From Candidatus Aenigmatarchaeota archaeon (lineage in GTDB: Archaea > Aenigmatarchaeota > Aenigmatarchaeia > QMZP01 > JAFGSV01): DNA of 45,737 bases. Below the pieces are notes generated by a model that was given only the letters and a program-made list of their open reading frames with translations, was not told the origin of the DNA and did no database searches. Where the stretch lies: positions 1-45,737 of the forward strand of contig JAGGXP010000023.1 of NCBI GenBank assembly GCA_021163005.1. The letters run 5' to 3'. The translations under genes and the position numbers were made by a program. Positions 1,626-28,629 of the stretch are shown piece after piece. Position 1 is the stretch's first letter. The number at the start of each line of letters is the position of its first letter.

Positions 1626-1664
1626 GAAGTTTTTTAAGGTTTCTGCGTCATATTCTATTACAAT

Positions 1665-1943
1665 CCCGAGGTAGCTCAGACTGGCTAGAGCGATCGGCTG
1701 TAGACGGGCACACCGTGATATATGCACGGTCTTATGAGTGTGTTTGTTGGACGCAGTCGCTCGAAAGAGACCGATAGGTCGGGAGTTCAAGAACCCTTTT
1801 GCGCAGGCATACGCACAAAAGCGTTCCACGGAAAGTACGCTGGCGCAGATTAACGGTCTGCAAGCGCCAAAATACGCTTCCGCCAAAGCGGAGGCAACGC
1901 GCAGGGAAAACGTCAAAGGGTTGGACAAATCTCCCTCTCGGGA
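1665..1943 (+). tRNA. tRNA-Tyr (anticodon GTA) with two introns
   Basis: Exons 1665-1703, 1770-1790 and 1929-1943 join into a 75-nt tRNA: acceptor CCCGAGG/TCTCGGG with the archaeal Tyr C1-G72 pair and A73, anticodon stem ATCGG/CCGAT, loop CTGTAGA, T-arm GGGAG-TTCAAAT-CTCCC. The first intron (66 nt, canonical 37/38) has a BHB with CTGT/AAAG (one mismatch), bulges AGA/AGA and an outer CGGGC/GCTCG helix. The second intron (138 nt) sits in the T-loop at 58/59 with an exact BHB: GTTC/GGAC central helix, bulges AAG and AAA, and an AACCC/GGGTT intron helix. Splicing there restores a standard 7-nt T-loop. Confidence 0.92.
1791..1928 (+). other. T-loop intron of tRNA-Tyr (138 nt)
   Basis: Opens with GAACCCTTTTGCG, a hairpin with GCATAC in the loop closed by CAAAAGCG, then TTCCA and the 18-mer CGGAAAGTACGCTGGCGC at 1829-1846. 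GGCGC of the 18-mer can pair with GCGCC at about 1863-1867. A further hairpin TCCGC-CAAA-GCGGA follows, and AAAGGGTT at the end pairs with the AACCCTTT start. This layout suggests a compact folded RNA; no coding sequence is seen. Confidence 0.8.
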
Positions 1944-2834: not shown

Positions 2835-3073
2835 GCCTCGATGGTGTAGTGGCCTAGCATATGGCCCTGTCACGGCCATGACCCGGGTTCAAAGGCACCC
2901 TTTTCCATAAGCATACATGGAAAAGCGCGCTCCGGAAAATACGTTAACAACAAATGAACGGTGCGCAGAGGAGCCGTGTCCGGAAGGGGTATCCATTCCG
3001 CAGGGTTTTGGATGGCAACCTTCTGGAAGAAACTGGCAGACTCTAAAATGTGCTGGAAATCCCGGTCGGGGCG
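2835..3073 (+). tRNA. tRNA-Asp (anticodon GTC) with a T-loop intron
   Basis: Exons 2835-2893 and 3060-3073 give a 73-nt tRNA: acceptor GCCTCGA/TCGGGGC, anticodon stem TGGCC/GGCCA, loop CTGTCAC, T-arm CCGGG-TTCAAAT-CCCGG, discriminator G73. The only intron (166 nt) lies at 59/60. Its BHB is exact: TTCA/TGGA central helix, bulges AAG and AAT, GCAC/GTGC intron helix. There is no anticodon-loop intron. A TATA-like CTTTAAAAG lies about 30 bp upstream, and TTTTT follows the 3' end at 3076-3080. Confidence 0.93.
2894..3059 (+). other. T-loop intron of tRNA-Asp (166 nt)
   Basis: Starts GGCACCCTTTTCCAT, with a perfect hairpin CTTTTCCAT/ATGGAAAAG whose loop contains GCATAC, then AAAGCGCGCTC and CGGAAAATACG. 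This is the same order of elements as in the Tyr and Pro T-loop introns. The later half (GGTGCGC, GGGGTATCCATTCC) is not obviously shared. Confidence 0.8.
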
Positions 3074-3990: not shown

Positions 3991-4242
3991 AACTTATTTA
4001 AAAACTAAAGTCTACAAATTCTTTTCAATGGGCCCGTAGCTCAGTCTGGCTAGAGCACCAGACGAGTGTGTTGCACGTCGTGCAGCACCTCAGGTGAAGC
4101 TTTTAATGTCATTAAAAGCGTGTTTAGGACCTTCAGAAATCCCGTGCAATGAACACGGCACTGCAAGAGGTTCCGATGACAGAATAAACCTGGGTGTCGC
4201 GGGTTCGAAGGCTCAAGGGGGCTTCGGCAGCTTACACGTGCA

Positions 4243-4421
4243 TGCCCCCTTAAAGCATTATTCCCCGCTTAAGAGGGCCAACGGCAACGGACAGCAACGC
4301 AAGATGACGGCTAACGCAGGATGAGCAAAGCCGTCCCGAACAGGAACGCAATCCGCCTGCATGCACAGGATGGATAAAGCAGGCTTTAGGCACATCTGCC
4401 CCCTTAAAGCATTATTCCCCG
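4243..4421 (+). repeat. 25-bp direct repeat within the tRNA-Lys intron
   Basis: Two identical 25-bp copies (TGCCCCCTTAAAGCATTATT then CCCCG) at 4243-4267 and 4397-4421, 154 bp apart. Each is followed by a purine-rich stretch able to pair with CCCC (AAGAGGG and AAAAGGG), so each copy probably forms its own hairpin. Confidence 0.85.
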
Positions 4422-4648
4422 TTAAAAGGGAAGAGAAGATGGGGAAAGGGAATGGTGCACAGGTTCCCCAGTAACAATGAAGAAGGAAAGGGGAATCAGG
4501 ACAGCAGCGGAAAGCCGCAAAGGTCGTGCAGGTCGCGCGGCTCGAACACTACGAACAGGAACGCACACCGCCTGCATGAACATAACGGACAAAGAATAAT
4601 CGAACAGGAACGCAATATGACGACTTGAACAGAATGAACAAGTCGTCT
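4337..4648 (+). repeat. CGAACAGGAACGCA repeat family, three copies in the tRNA-Lys intron
   Basis: CGAACAGGAACGCA starts at 4337, 4552 and 4601. The first two continue with (A/C)(T/A)CCGCCTGCATG and then GGATAAA or GGACAAA. The same unit occurs twice in inverted orientation at 28487-28575. The third copy carries the GACGAC...GTCGTC stem also present in the 28.5-kb element. Confidence 0.8.
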
Positions 4649-4809
4649 TTAAAAGGTATGCACAAAGCAGGCTTTAAGCCGCATTTAAAAGCTGTCCATG
4701 AGCTGGAAATCCTGCCGGGCCCATTTAAGCTTTTGGCGCAAGCGGAAGTGCCGTAAAAGGTTAACTTTAAATAGGCACGAAGCTGTTATAATTGGATTGA
4801 AGTGATAAC

Positions 4810-5552: not shown

Positions 5553-8500
5553 ATGGTTAGTGATGCAAAGTCCAAAAGCGCAGATATGGTTATGAACTTC
5601 ATCTCACTCTTCAAAGCAATAGAAAAAGAAAAGGGGTGGATGAACTTCCAGATAAATTCTTTCGACAAATTTGTGGATACAGGTCTTCAGAGCATAATAA
5701 ACGAGATAGGCACTGTGGATCTTGTCCCGGAGATGGGCGACGTCAAGCTGTCTTTCGGGAAGGTTGAGGTCGGTGACCCCTACCTGATAGAGGCAGACGG
5801 TTACAAGAGGTCCAAGGCTACCAAGAGTCCGCTTTATCCGAATGAATGCAGAATAAGGAACCTTACATATGCAGCTCCCATATGGGTGAACATAACACCT
5901 ATAGTGAACGGCGTACAGGAAAAGACGGAGAAGGTTCACATAGGCGATCTTCCTGTCATGGTGGGCTCCAAGCTGTGCTCGACATACGGGGTTTCAGAAA
6001 AGGAGCTTGTTGAGGCCGGTGAGGATCCAAGGGATGTCAAGGGATATTTCATTGTCAACGGCACTGAGAGGGCGCTCGTGCTCATAGAGGAAATCGCGGG
6101 GAACAAGCCTGTGTTTGAAAAGGGCGACGATGTCGTGACAGTCAGGGTGAATTCTGAGAGGAGCGGCTTCAAGCAGAGGCACCTCATAGAGAAAAGGCCT
6201 GAAGGGACACTCACGATATCGTTTGCCAACATAAGGCGCCTTTCGATTGTAACGCTTCTGAAAGCGCTTGGCCTGTCAACGGACAAGGACATATGCGACA
6301 ATGTGAGCAGCGACCCAAAAGTGCTCAACGACCTGTATGTTTCTCTTTACGAGTCAGAGCCCATAGACGAGGACGAGGCCATCGACTTCATAGGAAAGAA
6401 GCTCAAGGTCACAGAGGATTACAGAACCGAGAGAGTCAACCAGATACTTGACAGGTACCTGCTTCCGCACATAGGGCAGGAAAAGAAGGACAGGATGGCA
6501 AAGGCCCTTTACCTGGCAAGAATCATGCACAAGGTCATAGCTGTTTCGCAGGGCACAATACCGCAGGACGACATTGACCATTACAGCAACAAGAGGCTGC
6601 TCATGGGGGGCGAACTTCTCTCACAGCTGTTCAGGTCGGTTCTCCTTGGAAGGTGGGGCCTGATAGCAAAGATGACATACAACTACCAGAAGCTCACGAA
6701 GAGAGGACAGCAGCCGTCAGTTCAGGGAATAGTGGAAGCCAATGCTGTCACAAAGCAGATTCTTTCATCACTCGCAACAGGAAACTGGATAGGCGGAAGG
6801 ACAGGAGTCAGCCAGAGGCTTGACAGGAGCTGCTACGTAAAGTCCGTTTCCCACATCAGAAGCGTCGTATCACCGCTCACTACAACGCAGGAACATTTCA
6901 GCGCCAGGGAAATACATCCCACTGAATGGGGCAGGCTCTGCCCGGCAGAAACGCCTGAAGGAAGCTCGATAGGTCTGAGAAAGCACCTTGCCCTGCTGAC
7001 GGAAATAACGCCGGGGCTCACAGATGCTGGCAACGAGGCGCTTCTCAAGGCAGTCAAGGCGGAAATGGAAAAGTGCACCACAAAAGAGGTCAAGCATCCT
7101 TATGATGTCTACTTCAACGGCGACTTCATAGGAAAGACATCAGCTCCCGGAAAGGTTACTGAAAACATAAGGAAAAAGAGAAGGGCAGGGCTCATTAACG
7201 AGCAGCTCAACATATCCAAGCGTGACGAGTTCGCAGAGATAAGGATAAACACGGATACAGGAAGGGCGAGGAGACCGCTGCTTATACTTGAAAACGGGAA
7301 GCACAAGCTCAAGAGCGAGATAGTGCAGAAGATTATGAAAGGTGAGATAGACTCATCATACCTGCTCATACACGGCATAATGGAATATCTTGACGCAGAG
7401 GAGGAAGAGAATGCATATATAGCGCTCAAGCCTGAAAACATAACGCATGAGCACACGCATCTTGAGGTAACACCGTTCGCAATGCTCGGCCTGTCGGCAA
7501 GCCTGATACCCTACCCCGGGTACAACAGGGGCGACAGGATAAATTACGGCGCCAAGATGGTGGGCCAGTCCATAGGCATACCATCCACAAATTACCTTGT
7601 CAGGACAGACACTAAATTCAATACACTTGTTTACCCGGAAGCGCCGCTGATAGACACACACACATCGCAGGTCATGAGTGACTATCCCGGCGGCCAGAAT
7701 GTCGTTGTAGCTGTTATGAGCTGGGATGGGTACAACCTCAACGATGCCATAGTCATGAACAAATCCTCTGTTGAAAGGGGTCTTCTGAGGTCCATATACT
7801 ACAGGACATACGAAACCGAGAAGAAGCGCTACTGGGGCGGCCAGGAGGACGAGATAGGCGTGCCGCAGCCTGGCATCAAGGGTCACAGGGGCGAGGAGGC
7901 GTACAAGGACCTCGGACCGGATGGCATAATAAACCCGGAGACGCCTGTAGGATCAGATTCAGTTCTTGTGGGCAAGACGTCCCCGCTCAGGTTCCTTTCA
8001 GGCGAGGACTTCGCAGCAGGCGTGGAAAACCAGAGGGAGACATCCATAACAGTGAGGCACGGTGAAGGAGGGCTCGCTGACAAGATACTCATCTCAGAAA
8101 GCACGAACGGAAACCACATAATAAAGATAAGAGTCCGTGAGAGAAGAATCCCTGAAATAGGCGACAAATTCGCTTCGAGGCACGGCCAGAAGGGCGTAGT
8201 GAGCCTGATGGTGCCGCACGAAGACATGCCGTTCACGTCAAGGGGAGTGGTTCCTGACATAATATTCAACCCTCACGGCGTTCCCAGCAGGATGACCATG
8301 GGACAGCTGCTTGAGCTCATAGCTGGCAAAACCAAAGCCATGAGCGGCAAGGATATAAAGGGAACGGCATTCGAGCACATGAAGGAGAATGATATAAGGG
8401 ATCTTCTCCTCAAATCCGGCTTCCGCGACGACGGCAAGGAAATACTGTACGACGGAAGGACAGGAAAGGCGTACGAAGTGATGATATTCACAGGCATAAG

Positions 8501-8885
8501 CTTCTACCTCAAGCTGGACCACATGGTTGCCAACAAGATACACGCGAGGTCCCGTGGCCCTGTCACGCTACTCACGAGGCAGCCAACTGAAGGAAGGGCG
8601 AAGAGGGGCGGTCTGAGGCTCGGTGAAATGGAACAGCAGTGCCTTGTTGCGCACGGCTCAGCGCTGACACTTAAGGAGAGATTCGATTCCGACAGGGCCG
8701 TAATACCGTTCTGCAAGGAATGCGGAGTGATAGCAGTTCACGACAAGGCCAACAACAGGAGCTATTGCCCGCTTTGCAAAGACAGCAAGATAAAATGGGT
8801 GGAAACATCCTACGCATTCAAGCTTCTGCTGGACGAGATAATGTCCATGTCGATATATCCAAAACTTGAAATAGGTGATGCATGA
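5553..8885 (+). CDS. rpoB: RNA polymerase subunit B (Rpo2), unsplit
   Basis: A 1110-residue second-largest subunit. The unsplit form contrasts with the B'/B'' split of many methanogens and halophiles. Recognisable blocks include CPAETPEGSSIGL (about 465), DGYNLNDAIVMN in the hybrid-binding region, RHGQKGVVSLMVP near the active site, and LTRQPTEGRAKRGGLRLGEM near the C-terminus. A zinc ribbon, CKECGV...CPLC, lies at about 1052-1074. It starts 1 nt after rpoH and overlaps rpoA1 (GCATGATG), so translation is coupled. No intein or frameshift is seen. Confidence 0.97.
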   Translation: MVSDAKSKSADMVMNFISLFKAIEKEKGWMNFQINSFDKFVDTGLQSIINEIGTVDLVPEMGDVKLSFGKVEVGDPYLIEADGYKRSKATKSPLYPNECRIRNLTYAAPIWVNITPIVNGVQEKTEKVHIGDLPVMVGSKLCSTYGVSEKELVEAGEDPRDVKGYFIVNGTERALVLIEEIAGNKPVFEKGDDVVTVRVNSERSGFKQRHLIEKRPEGTLTISFANIRRLSIVTLLKALGLSTDKDICDNVSSDPKVLNDLYVSLYESEPIDEDEAIDFIGKKLKVTEDYRTERVNQILDRYLLPHIGQEKKDRMAKALYLARIMHKVIAVSQGTIPQDDIDHYSNKRLLMGGELLSQLFRSVLLGRWGLIAKMTYNYQKLTKRGQQPSVQGIVEANAVTKQILSSLATGNWIGGRTGVSQRLDRSCYVKSVSHIRSVVSPLTTTQEHFSAREIHPTEWGRLCPAETPEGSSIGLRKHLALLTEITPGLTDAGNEALLKAVKAEMEKCTTKEVKHPYDVYFNGDFIGKTSAPGKVTENIRKKRRAGLINEQLNISKRDEFAEIRINTDTGRARRPLLILENGKHKLKSEIVQKIMKGEIDSSYLLIHGIMEYLDAEEEENAYIALKPENITHEHTHLEVTPFAMLGLSASLIPYPGYNRGDRINYGAKMVGQSIGIPSTNYLVRTDTKFNTLVYPEAPLIDTHTSQVMSDYPGGQNVVVAVMSWDGYNLNDAIVMNKSSVERGLLRSIYYRTYETEKKRYWGGQEDEIGVPQPGIKGHRGEEAYKDLGPDGIINPETPVGSDSVLVGKTSPLRFLSGEDFAAGVENQRETSITVRHGEGGLADKILISESTNGNHIIKIRVRERRIPEIGDKFASRHGQKGVVSLMVPHEDMPFTSRGVVPDIIFNPHGVPSRMTMGQLLELIAGKTKAMSGKDIKGTAFEHMKENDIRDLLLKSGFRDDGKEILYDGRTGKAYEVMIFTGISFYLKLDHMVANKIHARSRGPVTLLTRQPTEGRAKRGGLRLGEMEQQCLVAHGSALTLKERFDSDRAVIPFCKECGVIAVHDKANNRSYCPLCKDSKIKWVETSYAFKLLLDEIMSMSIYPKLEIGDA

Positions 8886-26445: not shown

Positions 26446-27273
26446 ATGAAAATTGCATACGTGGCGGCGGCTGTCGCGCTATTGCTAGTTATCGGGGGGT
26501 TTGCGGTTTCATTCCAGCCCCAGAAGCCTTTCGTGAAGGCCTTCTACGATTCAGCGCCAAGGGACAATGGCACAATAGATGCGGAAAAGCTCATCCGAAC
26601 ACTTTCCGACGGAAACGCCAACACATACAACTTCCTGATGAGGAGACCGTCTGATTTCGAATCCCTCAAAGAGCTGCTTCCACTCGCTGCTGCCAAAGAC
26701 ATAGACATCTGGGTAACGCTCATACCGCCATCCGAGCTGAGCCCGGAGCAGAGGAACGACCCTGCATACACGGACTACAATGCATGGGCAGAAAAGCTGG
26801 CGAAGCTTTCGCTTGAGCATGAAAACCTGAAGGCATGGAGCATAGACAACGTCGTGATTGACAGCACGTTCTTCACACCGCAGTACCTCGGGTCCATGCT
26901 CGGAAAGGCGAGGGATATAAGCCCGAAGCTCATGTTCATACCGGTCGTCTATTACCAGAACGTGATTTCAGACGGCTTTGCCGAGCAGGCAAAATATTTC
27001 GACGGGGTGCAGTTTTACTACATGCACTTCCCCGGCGGGCCGCCAGCGGAGTCTGATATACTGATGACCCAGCTGCAGGAGCTGAGAAAGAGATTCGGCG
27101 GCATAGTCGTGCTTGGCTTATACGCGACTCCGTGGTCTCAGGAGTTCCCGACAAGCGCTGACTATGTGCAGCAGCTTATAAACCTTGCCAGGCAACATAC
27201 AGACGGTGTGATGATTTACACACTGAATCCGGGAGCGGAAAAATTCGAGGTCATAAGGCAGGAATTCGCATGA
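26446..27273 (+). CDS. secreted or membrane-anchored TIM-barrel-like protein
   Basis: A 275-residue protein. Residues 5-22 are a hydrophobic signal/anchor segment (YVAAAVALLLVIGGFAVSF). The rest repeats beta-alpha units: IDIWVTLIPPSEL, LKAWSIDNVVID, LMFIPVVYYQN, FDGVQFYYMHFPG, GIVVLGLYATPW and DGVMIYTLNPG, as expected for a (beta/alpha)8 barrel related to glycoside-hydrolase-like domains. Candidate acidic residues are the Asp of SIDNVVID and FDGVQFYY, but no catalytic pair is proven. It overlaps endA by 4 nt (ATGA), making an unexpected operon of a secreted protein and a tRNA-splicing enzyme. Confidence 0.7.
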   Translation: MKIAYVAAAVALLLVIGGFAVSFQPQKPFVKAFYDSAPRDNGTIDAEKLIRTLSDGNANTYNFLMRRPSDFESLKELLPLAAAKDIDIWVTLIPPSELSPEQRNDPAYTDYNAWAEKLAKLSLEHENLKAWSIDNVVIDSTFFTPQYLGSMLGKARDISPKLMFIPVVYYQNVISDGFAEQAKYFDGVQFYYMHFPGGPPAESDILMTQLQELRKRFGGIVVLGLYATPWSQEFPTSADYVQQLINLARQHTDGVMIYTLNPGAEKFEVIRQEFA

Positions 27274-28466
27274 TTGAGATAAGGTTTGACCCCAAAAAGG
27301 GCATATGGGCAGAGAATGAGGACGCAGACAGGCTGAGGAACAACTCCTTCGGAAGACAGGAAAAGGACAAGCTGTGGCTCATGCCGGAAGAGGCGCTCTA
27401 CATTCTCGACCTGATGAACGGCAGGGCTGTGCGTGGCAAAAAGCAGGCGGGATTTGAAGACATCGTGTCCGCTTATGCAGCGAAAGACCCGAGGATACTG
27501 CTAAAATACAATGCCTACAGGGACTGGCGCGACCGCGGCCTTATAGTCAAAAGGGTTGATGACGGGATTAAGGGCAGCAGCAACAGAGCCGGGCATGTGA
27601 AGAAATATCCGTCAAAGGACATGAAGGTGGCAAAAGGCAGGGGGAAAATCCTTTGGGACGATGACTCGGCCATGGGCATCTACACAGCCGCCGACGCCAG
27701 GACGCTGTATTCGGATTGGTGGCTCGGCCAGATAGGCGTTTACAAGCAGGATAGGGGCAGCGTCCTCAAGCTCAATTTCTTCGAGGTCGTGCTGCTGTCT
27801 AAACATTTCGGCTTTAAGGTGAGGAATGCCAGGACGGGAAAGAGCATCACCGCGAAAAGGATAATGGATGAGATATCCAAGCGCAGGGAATTTGCCCGTT
27901 CAATGTACCAGGCCTACGAGGACTGGAGGATGCGCGGCTACATAGTCAAGACCGGCTTTAAGTTCGGCACCCACTTCAGGATTTACTTTCCAGAGGCATC
28001 GCCTCTCAGGGAAACGTCCAACGGAAAATGGATCCACTCCAAGCATGTCCTTCACATATTTCCCAAGGAAGAGAAGTTGCTGATTTCAGAATGGGCGAGG
28101 GCCGTGCGCGTTGCTCATGGTGTCAGAAAGACTTTCATACTGGGTGTGCCGAAGATAACGAAAAAGGATTGTGTGGACTACCCGGCAGACTTTGTGGCGT
28201 TCAGGCGCAAGAAGAAGGGCAAGGACTGGGTGAGGGAGGCGCCGCCGAAGGACAGGCCGAGGTATCTTCTTGCAGACCTGAGCGAGGAAGAGCACATAGG
28301 CGGCATTGAGCTGGCATCGCTTCTCGCCAAGGCAGGGGGCATGAATCTCAATCTCATACTTTCCATAACAGACAGGGAAACTGCCATAACCTACTACGCG
28401 CTCAACAAGATAAAGATACAGGGCGCGAAGTTCGACTACTACGAGATAGAGTGGCTGAGGCCCTGA
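27270..28466 (+). CDS. endA: tRNA-splicing endonuclease, multi-unit (epsilon-type) form
   Basis: A 398-residue EndA, more than twice the usual one-unit length. The catalytic unit lies at about 205-310: GYIVKTGFKFGTHFRIYF, then WIHSKHVLHIF and RAVRVAHGVRKTF, giving the triad Y239, H256 and K287. An N-terminal EndA-like unit (about 35-100, AYRDWRDRGLIVK) echoes the pre-catalytic YEDWRMRGYIVK, and a C-terminal unit (about 325-398, RYLLADLSEEEHIGG, ALNKI) lacks the triad. This matches the three-unit epsilon2 enzyme of ARMAN archaea, which is known to cut relaxed BHB motifs. Its presence fits the many non-canonical tRNA introns in this window. Confidence 0.9.
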   Translation: MIEIRFDPKKGIWAENEDADRLRNNSFGRQEKDKLWLMPEEALYILDLMNGRAVRGKKQAGFEDIVSAYAAKDPRILLKYNAYRDWRDRGLIVKRVDDGIKGSSNRAGHVKKYPSKDMKVAKGRGKILWDDDSAMGIYTAADARTLYSDWWLGQIGVYKQDRGSVLKLNFFEVVLLSKHFGFKVRNARTGKSITAKRIMDEISKRREFARSMYQAYEDWRMRGYIVKTGFKFGTHFRIYFPEASPLRETSNGKWIHSKHVLHIFPKEEKLLISEWARAVRVAHGVRKTFILGVPKITKKDCVDYPADFVAFRRKKKGKDWVREAPPKDRPRYLLADLSEEEHIGGIELASLLAKAGGMNLNLILSITDRETAITYYALNKIKIQGAKFDYYEIEWLRP

Positions 28467-28486
28467 ACCGGTAAGTGCCTAAAGAC

Positions 28487-28575
28487 GACTTTGTCCACAC
28501 TGCGCATGTCGTCGGTGTGCGTTTCTGTTCGATTTTGTCCGTTCCGTATATGTCGTCGGTGTGCGTTTCTGTTCG
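28487..28575 (-). repeat. tandem 44-bp repeat downstream of endA, related to the tRNA-Lys intron
   Basis: Two head-to-tail units, 28487-28530 and 28531-28574. Each has GAYTTTGTCC, a variable 9-nt stretch and an identical 26-bp block (28506-28531 and 28550-28575) ending GGTGTGCGTTTCTGTTCG. The reverse complement CGAACAGAAACGCACACCG differs at one base from the tRNA-Lys intron at 4552-4570; GGACAAA and GTCGTCTTTA are also shared in order. The rest of the endA-HEPN-like gap (28467-28691) contains ACGCGTCAGCGGAAAACAGG (28590-28609), loosely similar to the T-loop intron module, and then the operators described separately. Confidence 0.8.
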
Positions 28576-28629
28576 TCCCCTTCAGTTTTACGCGTCAGCG
28601 GAAAACAGGCTTACTGTTCTCGCAGTTTC

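Follow-up and report, generated by a model that had tools for sequence, protein, structure and literature searches.

A tRNA-Lys gene with a seven-nucleotide anticodon exon in Aenigmatarchaeota and a proposed alternatively spliced homologue in Nanohalarchaeota

The tRNA-Lys(UUU) gene and its three introns

The stretch of DNA analysed here, referred to as the window, comprises 45,737 nucleotides and derives from contig C14 of an Aenigmatarchaeota MAG, which consists of 945 kb in 43 contigs and is 91% complete. The RpoB encoded in the window shares 83% identity with that of named Aenigmatarchaeota MAGs, which assigns the organism to Candidatus Aenigmatarchaeota (DPANN). Upstream of rpoB lies a tRNA-Lys(UUU) gene spanning positions 4030-4723, with four exons (32, 7, 22 and 14 nt) separated by introns at 30/31 (37 nt), 37/38 (82 nt) and 59/60 (500 nt). 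The features of this region are as follows.

4030..4061, + strand: exon 1 of tRNA-Lys(UUU), nt 1-30, with the acceptor 5' strand, the D arm and CCAG at 27-30
4062..4098, + strand: intron 1, 37 nt, at 30/31; central helix of 4056-4059 (CACC) with 4093-4096 (GGTG), bulges AG^A and AA^G
4099..4105, + strand: exon 2, GCTTTTA, nt 31-37, containing the UUU anticodon and invariant in all relatives
4106..4187, + strand: intron 2, 82 nt, at 37/38; h' helix 4107-4112/4176-4181, central helix 4100-4103/4182-4185 (three of four pairs)
4188..4209, + strand: exon 3, nt 38-59, read from the joined tRNA
4210..4709, + strand: intron 3, 500 nt, in the T loop at 59/60; BHB helices 4204-4207/4704-4707 and 4211-4214/4700-4703; contains dispersed repeats
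4710..4723, + strand: exon 4, nt 60-73, with the T stem 3' strand, the acceptor 3' strand and the discriminator A
5553..8885, + strand: rpoB, downstream of the tRNA-Lys gene in relatives too, which anchors the homology

Excision of 4062-4098, 4106-4187 and 4210-4709 yields a canonical 75-nt tRNA-Lys(UUU), in which GGGCCCGTAGCTCAGTCTGGCTAGAGCACCAG, GCTTTTA, ACCTGGGTGTCGCGGGTTCGAA and TCCTGCCGGGCCCA are joined in this order. The joined 75-mer is predicted to fold into a cloverleaf and a bulge-helix-bulge (BHB) motif is present at every junction, which places the gene among the BHB-intron tRNA genes. Neither ARAGORN nor Rfam RF00005 detected the gene in the window, because of its introns. The original prediction of a 75-nt tRNA-Lys spread over this interval, with three intron sites and GCTTTTA as a 7-nt exon, is thus borne out by the cloverleaf, the BHB motifs and, for two of the sites, relatives that lack the intron. 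Specifically, intron 1 is missing from G022 (L034), which reads ACCAG-GCTTTTA, and the T loop is uninterrupted in G003, G013 and G032. These relatives are independent proof of the joints for intron 1 and the T-loop intron. Intron 2 was found in every Aenigmatarchaeota relative examined, so that the 37/38 joint is placed solely by the cloverleaf and the BHB.

Gene anatomy and BHB pairing, like the covariation of intron 1 and the distribution of gene types described below, can be read directly from the sequence. In intron 1, all four central pairs of the predicted CACC/GGTG helix form, and in intron 3 both the central helix UUCG/UGGA and the h' helix GCUC/GAGC are complete (4/4 each). The pairing foreseen for intron 2 holds only in part: the h' helix proposed as TGTC/GACA is fully paired and extends to UGUCAU/AUGACA (6/6), whereas the proposed central helix CTTT/GAAT carries one mismatch, C32 opposite U, leaving three of four pairs in CUUU/GAAU. 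The helix of the first BHB, formed by nt 25-28 with the intron end, is paired in 104 of 104 cells across 26 genes from two phyla, compared with 24-52% for versions slid along the sequence. It also shows compensatory changes, from CACC/GGTG to CGCC/GGCG and CATC/GATG. The best explanation as a whole, including its Nanohalarchaeota part discussed below, is held with fairly high confidence; it takes the locus at 4030-4723 to be functional, producing tRNA-Lys(UUU) from a precursor that would be cut at three BHB motifs.

Isoacceptor genes in the window genome

A second intact tRNA-Lys(UUU) gene, which according to the original prediction would make this locus dispensable, was looked for in the 91%-complete MAG with a covariance model and a DNA search, and none was found. 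The comparison of tRNAs within this genome covered the stretches around tRNA genes and repeats. A second UUU gene may possibly reside in the missing 9%. Lys(CUU) is encoded elsewhere in the genome by a gene with a single intron (G000:C3:21735-21842), and congeners likewise have separate CUU genes.

The incompleteness of the MAG (about 91% present) and the gross interruption of the gene would both suit a decayed tRNA gene, with another UUU gene located in the absent part of the genome. This is very improbable, as all stems of the tRNA pair, the BHB helices are almost fully paired and relatives within the genus retain this rpoB-linked UUU gene as well.

The splicing endonuclease

The enzyme that would process the precursor is encoded in the same window.

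27270..28466, + strand: epsilon2-type tRNA-splicing endonuclease (EndA), 398 aa; PF01974 E 6.7e-28, PDB 4fz2 E 1.4e-87

That an EndA is encoded at 27270 had been called from the sequence, and the call agrees with both the PF01974 match and the full-length similarity to the ARMAN-2 EndA (PDB 4fz2), which reaches E 1.4e-87 across 385 residues. The ARMAN-2 enzyme has a broad specificity and accepts varied bulges (PMC12397907). By homology, as a member of the epsilon2 type, the window EndA has the putative ability to cut non-canonical sites, and it is likely the enzyme for all three introns. In the proposed pathway, this EndA would cut the precursor at the three BHB motifs, and the exons would subsequently be ligated as in archaeal biology in general.

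The 7-nt exon and its pairing with intron 2

Exon 2 is followed by an intron that contains its own complement.

4112..4119, + strand: TTAAAAGC in intron 2, a conserved antisense element; reverse-complementary to exon 2 together with the intron base that follows it

In all 20 aligned Aenigmatarchaeota genes, GCTTTTA is followed by an intron with the complement TTAAAAGC or ATAAAAGC, and a pairing of 7-8 bp between exon 2 and intron 2 is possible in 20/20. Across these 20 genes, the stem after the antisense element contains five covarying pairs. The pairing of exon 2 with intron 2 is the dominant feature of the predicted precursor fold. As long as the precursor retains intron 1, exon 2 is predicted to be sequestered in this conserved hairpin with a pairing probability of >0.9; upon removal of intron 1, the predicted probability falls to about 0.65, and that of the h' helix of intron 2 is about 0.35.

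In clustered archaeal introns, one may need to be removed before the next BHB can form, as stated in the description of tRNAscan-SE 2.0 (PMC8450103). The ordered splicing of the original prediction is therefore a reasonable supposition, and a plausible one for the window gene. The exon-intron 2 pairing as the sole ordering device was considered and rejected, since relatives without intron 1 keep the same pairing.

Intron 2 (window 4106-4187; L009-L015, L030-L035) also stands out as a conserved module, WTAAAAGC-RTGTTKAR-(covarying stem)-RATGAYAG, the first part of which is antisense to the anticodon loop. The possibility that this UUAAAAGC-hairpin-AUGAYAG module is a guide RNA aimed at its own anticodon loop was considered. 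A comparison with box C/D-like and H/ACA-like guides revealed no convincing C, D or ACA boxes common to all relatives.

The repeat-built T-loop intron

Intron 3 had been described as 500 nt without a visible open frame. It is exactly 500 nt long and contains no convincing ORF, its longest stop-to-stop stretch being 106 codons. An Rfam search at a relaxed threshold gave one chance match to an lncRNA and a best E of 0.19, far below the cutoff. With no Rfam match near the cutoff and no convincing ORF, the intron does not classify as a group I, group II or homing-endonuclease intron. It is built of dispersed repeats, among them four copies of a hairpin unit recognised by the model R1.

4288..4335, + strand: hairpin repeat unit in intron 3, model R1, E 1.1e-13
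4337..4384, + strand: hairpin repeat unit in intron 3, model R1, E 5.9e-14
4552..4590, + strand: degenerate hairpin repeat unit in intron 3, model R1, E 6.2e-4
4601..4647, + strand: hairpin repeat unit in intron 3, model R1, E 7.4e-12

This 48-nt unit with a covarying stem has 34 copies in the window genome, located within 59/60 introns and between genes, with many adjoining tRNA genes. It is absent from the three congeners searched, and a search of eight other genomes returned a single weak match. An intergenic stretch with copies of the repeat lies in the window at 28475-28576 on the - strand.

Introns with the same ends (GGCTCAAGGGGG ... GAGCTGRRAA) occupy the site 59/60 in at least six other tRNA genes of the window genome, identified by eye as Leu, Leu, Trp, Ser, Gly and a Ser gene that is cut by the contig end. 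Where complete, they measure 176-495 nt, which gives a range of 176-500 nt together with the Lys intron. Six complete copies were compared at 59/60, in addition to the seventh cut by the contig end, and they form a dispersed tRNA intron family. Modules are shuffled among its members, and the T-loop BHB pairs fully in the six copies with a varying partner.

Within the genus, the T-loop intron of the Lys gene is absent in G003, 16 nt long in G001 and about 36 nt long in G002. Together with the species-specific repeat, this suggests a minimal BHB intron that was filled by the repeat. The 500-nt intron would accordingly represent a separate, recent event, in which species-specific dispersed repeats expanded a minimal 59/60 intron. 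A self-mobile intron or homing element inserting at 59/60 would likewise explain the same site and ends in at least six other tRNA genes (one of them contig-cut) and the 34 hairpin units genome-wide. Such a mobile element is a possible but somewhat doubtful source, as there is no convincing ORF and no Rfam group I or II match, and the length range of 176-500 nt, the shuffled modules and the intergenic units fit repeat proliferation or gene conversion equally well. Under the preferred reading of a filled minimal intron, the repeat-filled T-loop introns illustrate how a tRNA intron may grow to 500 nt with its splice motif kept.

Further tRNA genes of the window carry comparable interruptions. 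A Tyr-like tRNA gene (anticodon GTA, with an anticodon intron) at 1664-1943 (+) and an Asp-like tRNA gene (anticodon GTC) at 2835-3073 (+) have long T-loop introns with a second repeat type (ACCCTTTT...AAAAGCG...). Thus, the first 5 kb of the window, which also contain a 5S rRNA gene (2662-2775, +; Rfam, 66 bits), show three tRNA genes, each with an interrupted T loop. Elsewhere in the genome, the solitary first 15 nt of a tRNA (GGGCCYGTAGCTCAG) are directly followed by a AACCCTTTT... repeat, at G000:C1:13078 (L002), C29:17689 (L123), and C3:21569 and 21652 (L004). Intact Arg, Ile-like and Lys(CUU) genes are located 83-325 bp downstream of these solitary GGGCCYGTAGCTCAG copies, an arrangement that would suit an element inserting behind nt 15 of a tRNA gene and duplicating its 5' end.

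A two-anticodon tRNA-Lys gene in Nanohalarchaeota

The rpoB-linked gene of Nanohalarchaeota reads ACCGG-GCTCTTA-AT...GGTGAA-GCTTTTA-ACCAGAC...GAAGAT-ACCCGG. Its intron 1 thus contains a second 7-mer, GCTCTTA, from which GCTTTTA differs only at nt 34; both fit nt 31-37. A strict pattern for this two-anticodon arrangement matched 18 of the 34 Nanohalarchaeota genomes, with 0 matches for a reversed-pattern control, and G045, G054 and G055 were added by reading, giving 21/34. None of the 156 Aenigmatarchaeota genomes matched the pattern. The window gene has no CUU cassette in intron 1 and its genome encodes the separate Lys(CUU) gene, in contrast to a two-anticodon gene that is the only tRNA-Lys found in its genome. 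It is therefore a homologue and not a member of this class.

No other tRNA-Lys was found by DNA similarity in the 21 carriers, although BLAST could miss a Lys gene that is heavily interrupted and, all genomes being MAGs, missing Lys genes could partly reflect gaps. Side matches in the carriers were rejected as further tRNA-Lys genes, as they proved to be Arg, Ile, Leu, Ala and a SelC-like gene. Nine genomes (G053, G056, G063-G069) have separate Lys genes and no two-anticodon gene, with only one of the two separate genes seen in G068 and G069, while no Lys gene at all was seen in G057, G060, G061 and G062. The well-assembled carrier G050 encodes, according to an RF00005 search, separate genes for Gln (CTG, TTG) and Glu (TTC, CTC) and a single Lys gene, which is called CTT by ARAGORN. 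If this single gene gave no UUU tRNA, AAA would be unreadable by known rules. Annotation tools give the two-anticodon gene the name Lys(CUU), and the carriers would consequently seem to be without an essential tRNA.

Proposed alternative splicing of the two-anticodon gene

In the carriers, which extend across the phylum and share only 47-50% RpoB identity, the 8-mer GCTCTTAA is invariant. It is kept even in L099, L107, L112 and L192, where its h' partner GAG is lost. In every carrier, the central helix of the CUU-cassette BHB has one mismatch, where C34 faces A or U, and in some the h' helix of this BHB is weak. The conservation of the cassette, together with two competing precursor folds of similar predicted energy (within about 5 kcal/mol), suggests that the two 7-mers are mutually exclusive exons. 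In the first fold, a cloverleaf, the CUU cassette would occupy the anticodon loop, and removal of one long 37/38 intron would yield tRNA-Lys(CUU). In the second, GUCUGG of the D loop would pair with CCAGAC of intron 2 and nt 22-24 with the UUU cassette. These pairings would complete a canonical BHB around intron 1, so that intron 1 and then intron 2 could leave to give tRNA-Lys(UUU).

When CCAGAC is shuffled, the alternative fold loses on average roughly 1-12 kcal/mol against the cloverleaf. The GUCUGG/CCAGAC match is exact in all but the L107/L112 lineage, where it is partial. This helix is conserved without covariation, and the switch between folds is hence put forward as a hypothesis. The splicing products and the order of the cuts are, like the switch, what we infer from these features.

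U34 tRNAs can read both AAA and AAG. Nanohalarchaeota might therefore make only tRNA-Lys(UUU), with GCTCTTAA serving as a structural element of the intron, in which CUC pairs with GAG beside the BHB, or persisting as a relic, and CTC/GAG pairing is indeed possible in most carriers. Several observations render this distinctly unlikely: eight nucleotides are invariant though only three could pair, the 8-mer stays in the four genes in which the pairing is broken, and the one position at which the copy departs from the UUU cassette is nt 34. Moreover, CUU and UUU mostly have a gene each in the non-carriers that were checked, and G050 keeps C34 partners for Gln and Glu.

From the sequences at hand, alternative splicing is considered the probable reading. 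In at least 21 Nanohalarchaeota genomes, a single tRNA-Lys gene would be spliced with mutually exclusive 7-nt exons, both isoacceptors arising by competing folds, and the window exon would be the UUU half of an ancestral system. If true, this is a new form of tRNA encoding, in which cis alternative splicing of a tRNA gene lets RNA folding set the isoacceptor ratio, and it would explain the persistence of a nucleotide-scale exon. It also makes testable whether tRNA exons act as cassettes and whether the isoacceptor ratio responds to conditions.

Relation to known systems

Multi-intron tRNA genes of Thermoproteales were reportedly described by Sugahara in 2008. Archaeal tRNAs with up to three BHB introns are known (PMC8450103). 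As in the window gene, the introns of Thermoproteales tRNAs are non-canonical, number up to three and are removed by EndA, and one of them may have to be excised for the next motif to form (PMC8450103). The window gene differs from these in its 500-nt, repeat-built T-loop intron and in an invariant 7-nt anticodon exon shared with the two-anticodon gene of a sister phylum. In the tri-split tRNA-Gly of Caldivirga maquilingensis, alternative short anticodon-loop pieces are likewise combined with common tRNA parts to give synonymous isoacceptors; there, separate transcripts are joined in trans (PMC4390854), whereas the Nanohalarchaeota pieces lie in one gene, in cis. Known tRNA intron transposition likewise leaves several tRNA genes in a genome with similar introns at one shared position, but the family described here reaches 500 nt, is built of repeats, occupies 59/60 and was not detected in the congeners searched. 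Most tRNA genes of Atabeyarchaeia and Freyarchaeia, which belong to an Asgard lineage, contain introns, over half of them several at non-canonical positions, and no mention of anticodon cassettes was found for them (PMC11291895).

Multi-intron archaeal tRNAs, stepwise removal, intron-rich genomes, intron transposition and trans-joined alternative anticodon pieces are thus already known. A search confined to open-access papers, preprints excluded, yielded neither a tRNA gene reported to hold two anticodon exons nor alternative splicing of an archaeal tRNA. To our knowledge, the apparent ability of one gene to be spliced into two alternative lysine tRNAs is undescribed for any tRNA gene. If confirmed, the Nanohalarchaeota gene goes beyond a variant of the known multi-intron tRNA.

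History of the gene in the two phyla

The 7-nt exon is best understood as a conserved anticodon cassette between the 30/31 and 37/38 introns, of which the window lineage would keep only the UUU version, with a distinct gene supplying CUU. A quick RpoB tree with midpoint rooting only requires two changes of the two-cassette state in a least-change reading. This is compatible with an ancestral two-cassette gene and two losses, one in Aenigmatarchaeota and the other in the KA24/KA27 lineage.

The window gene could also be an ordinary archaeal multi-intron tRNA that gained two introns independently, with a 7-nt exon left between them by chance and without any relation to the Nanohalarchaeota gene. 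In favour of this, archaeal tRNAs with three introns have precedents (PMC8450103), intron 1 is missing from several relatives, and an Ile-like tRNA gene of the window genome (G000:C19) has a 30/31 intron with the end GGTGAA^G. A chance origin is nevertheless rather unlikely, since both phyla share the same cassette, the same two intron sites and the same rpoB linkage, the 3' end of intron 1 (GGTGAA^GCTTTTA) is near-identical in both, and the quick RpoB tree needs two changes of the two-exon state. A common origin of the cassette remains the preferred reading. Intron 1 of the window gene may itself have been gained independently of the two-cassette gene, a possibility raised by the similar 30/31 intron of the Ile-like tRNA and by the two-anticodon pattern occurring in 0/156 Aenigmatarchaeota.

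The Ile-like gene (L258, +), with its 30/31 intron ending like Lys intron 1, has a T-loop intron in addition. In G019, a Lys(CUU) gene (L236) has a 30/31 intron ending GGTGAA^GCTCTTA, a mirror of the UUU exon in the window.
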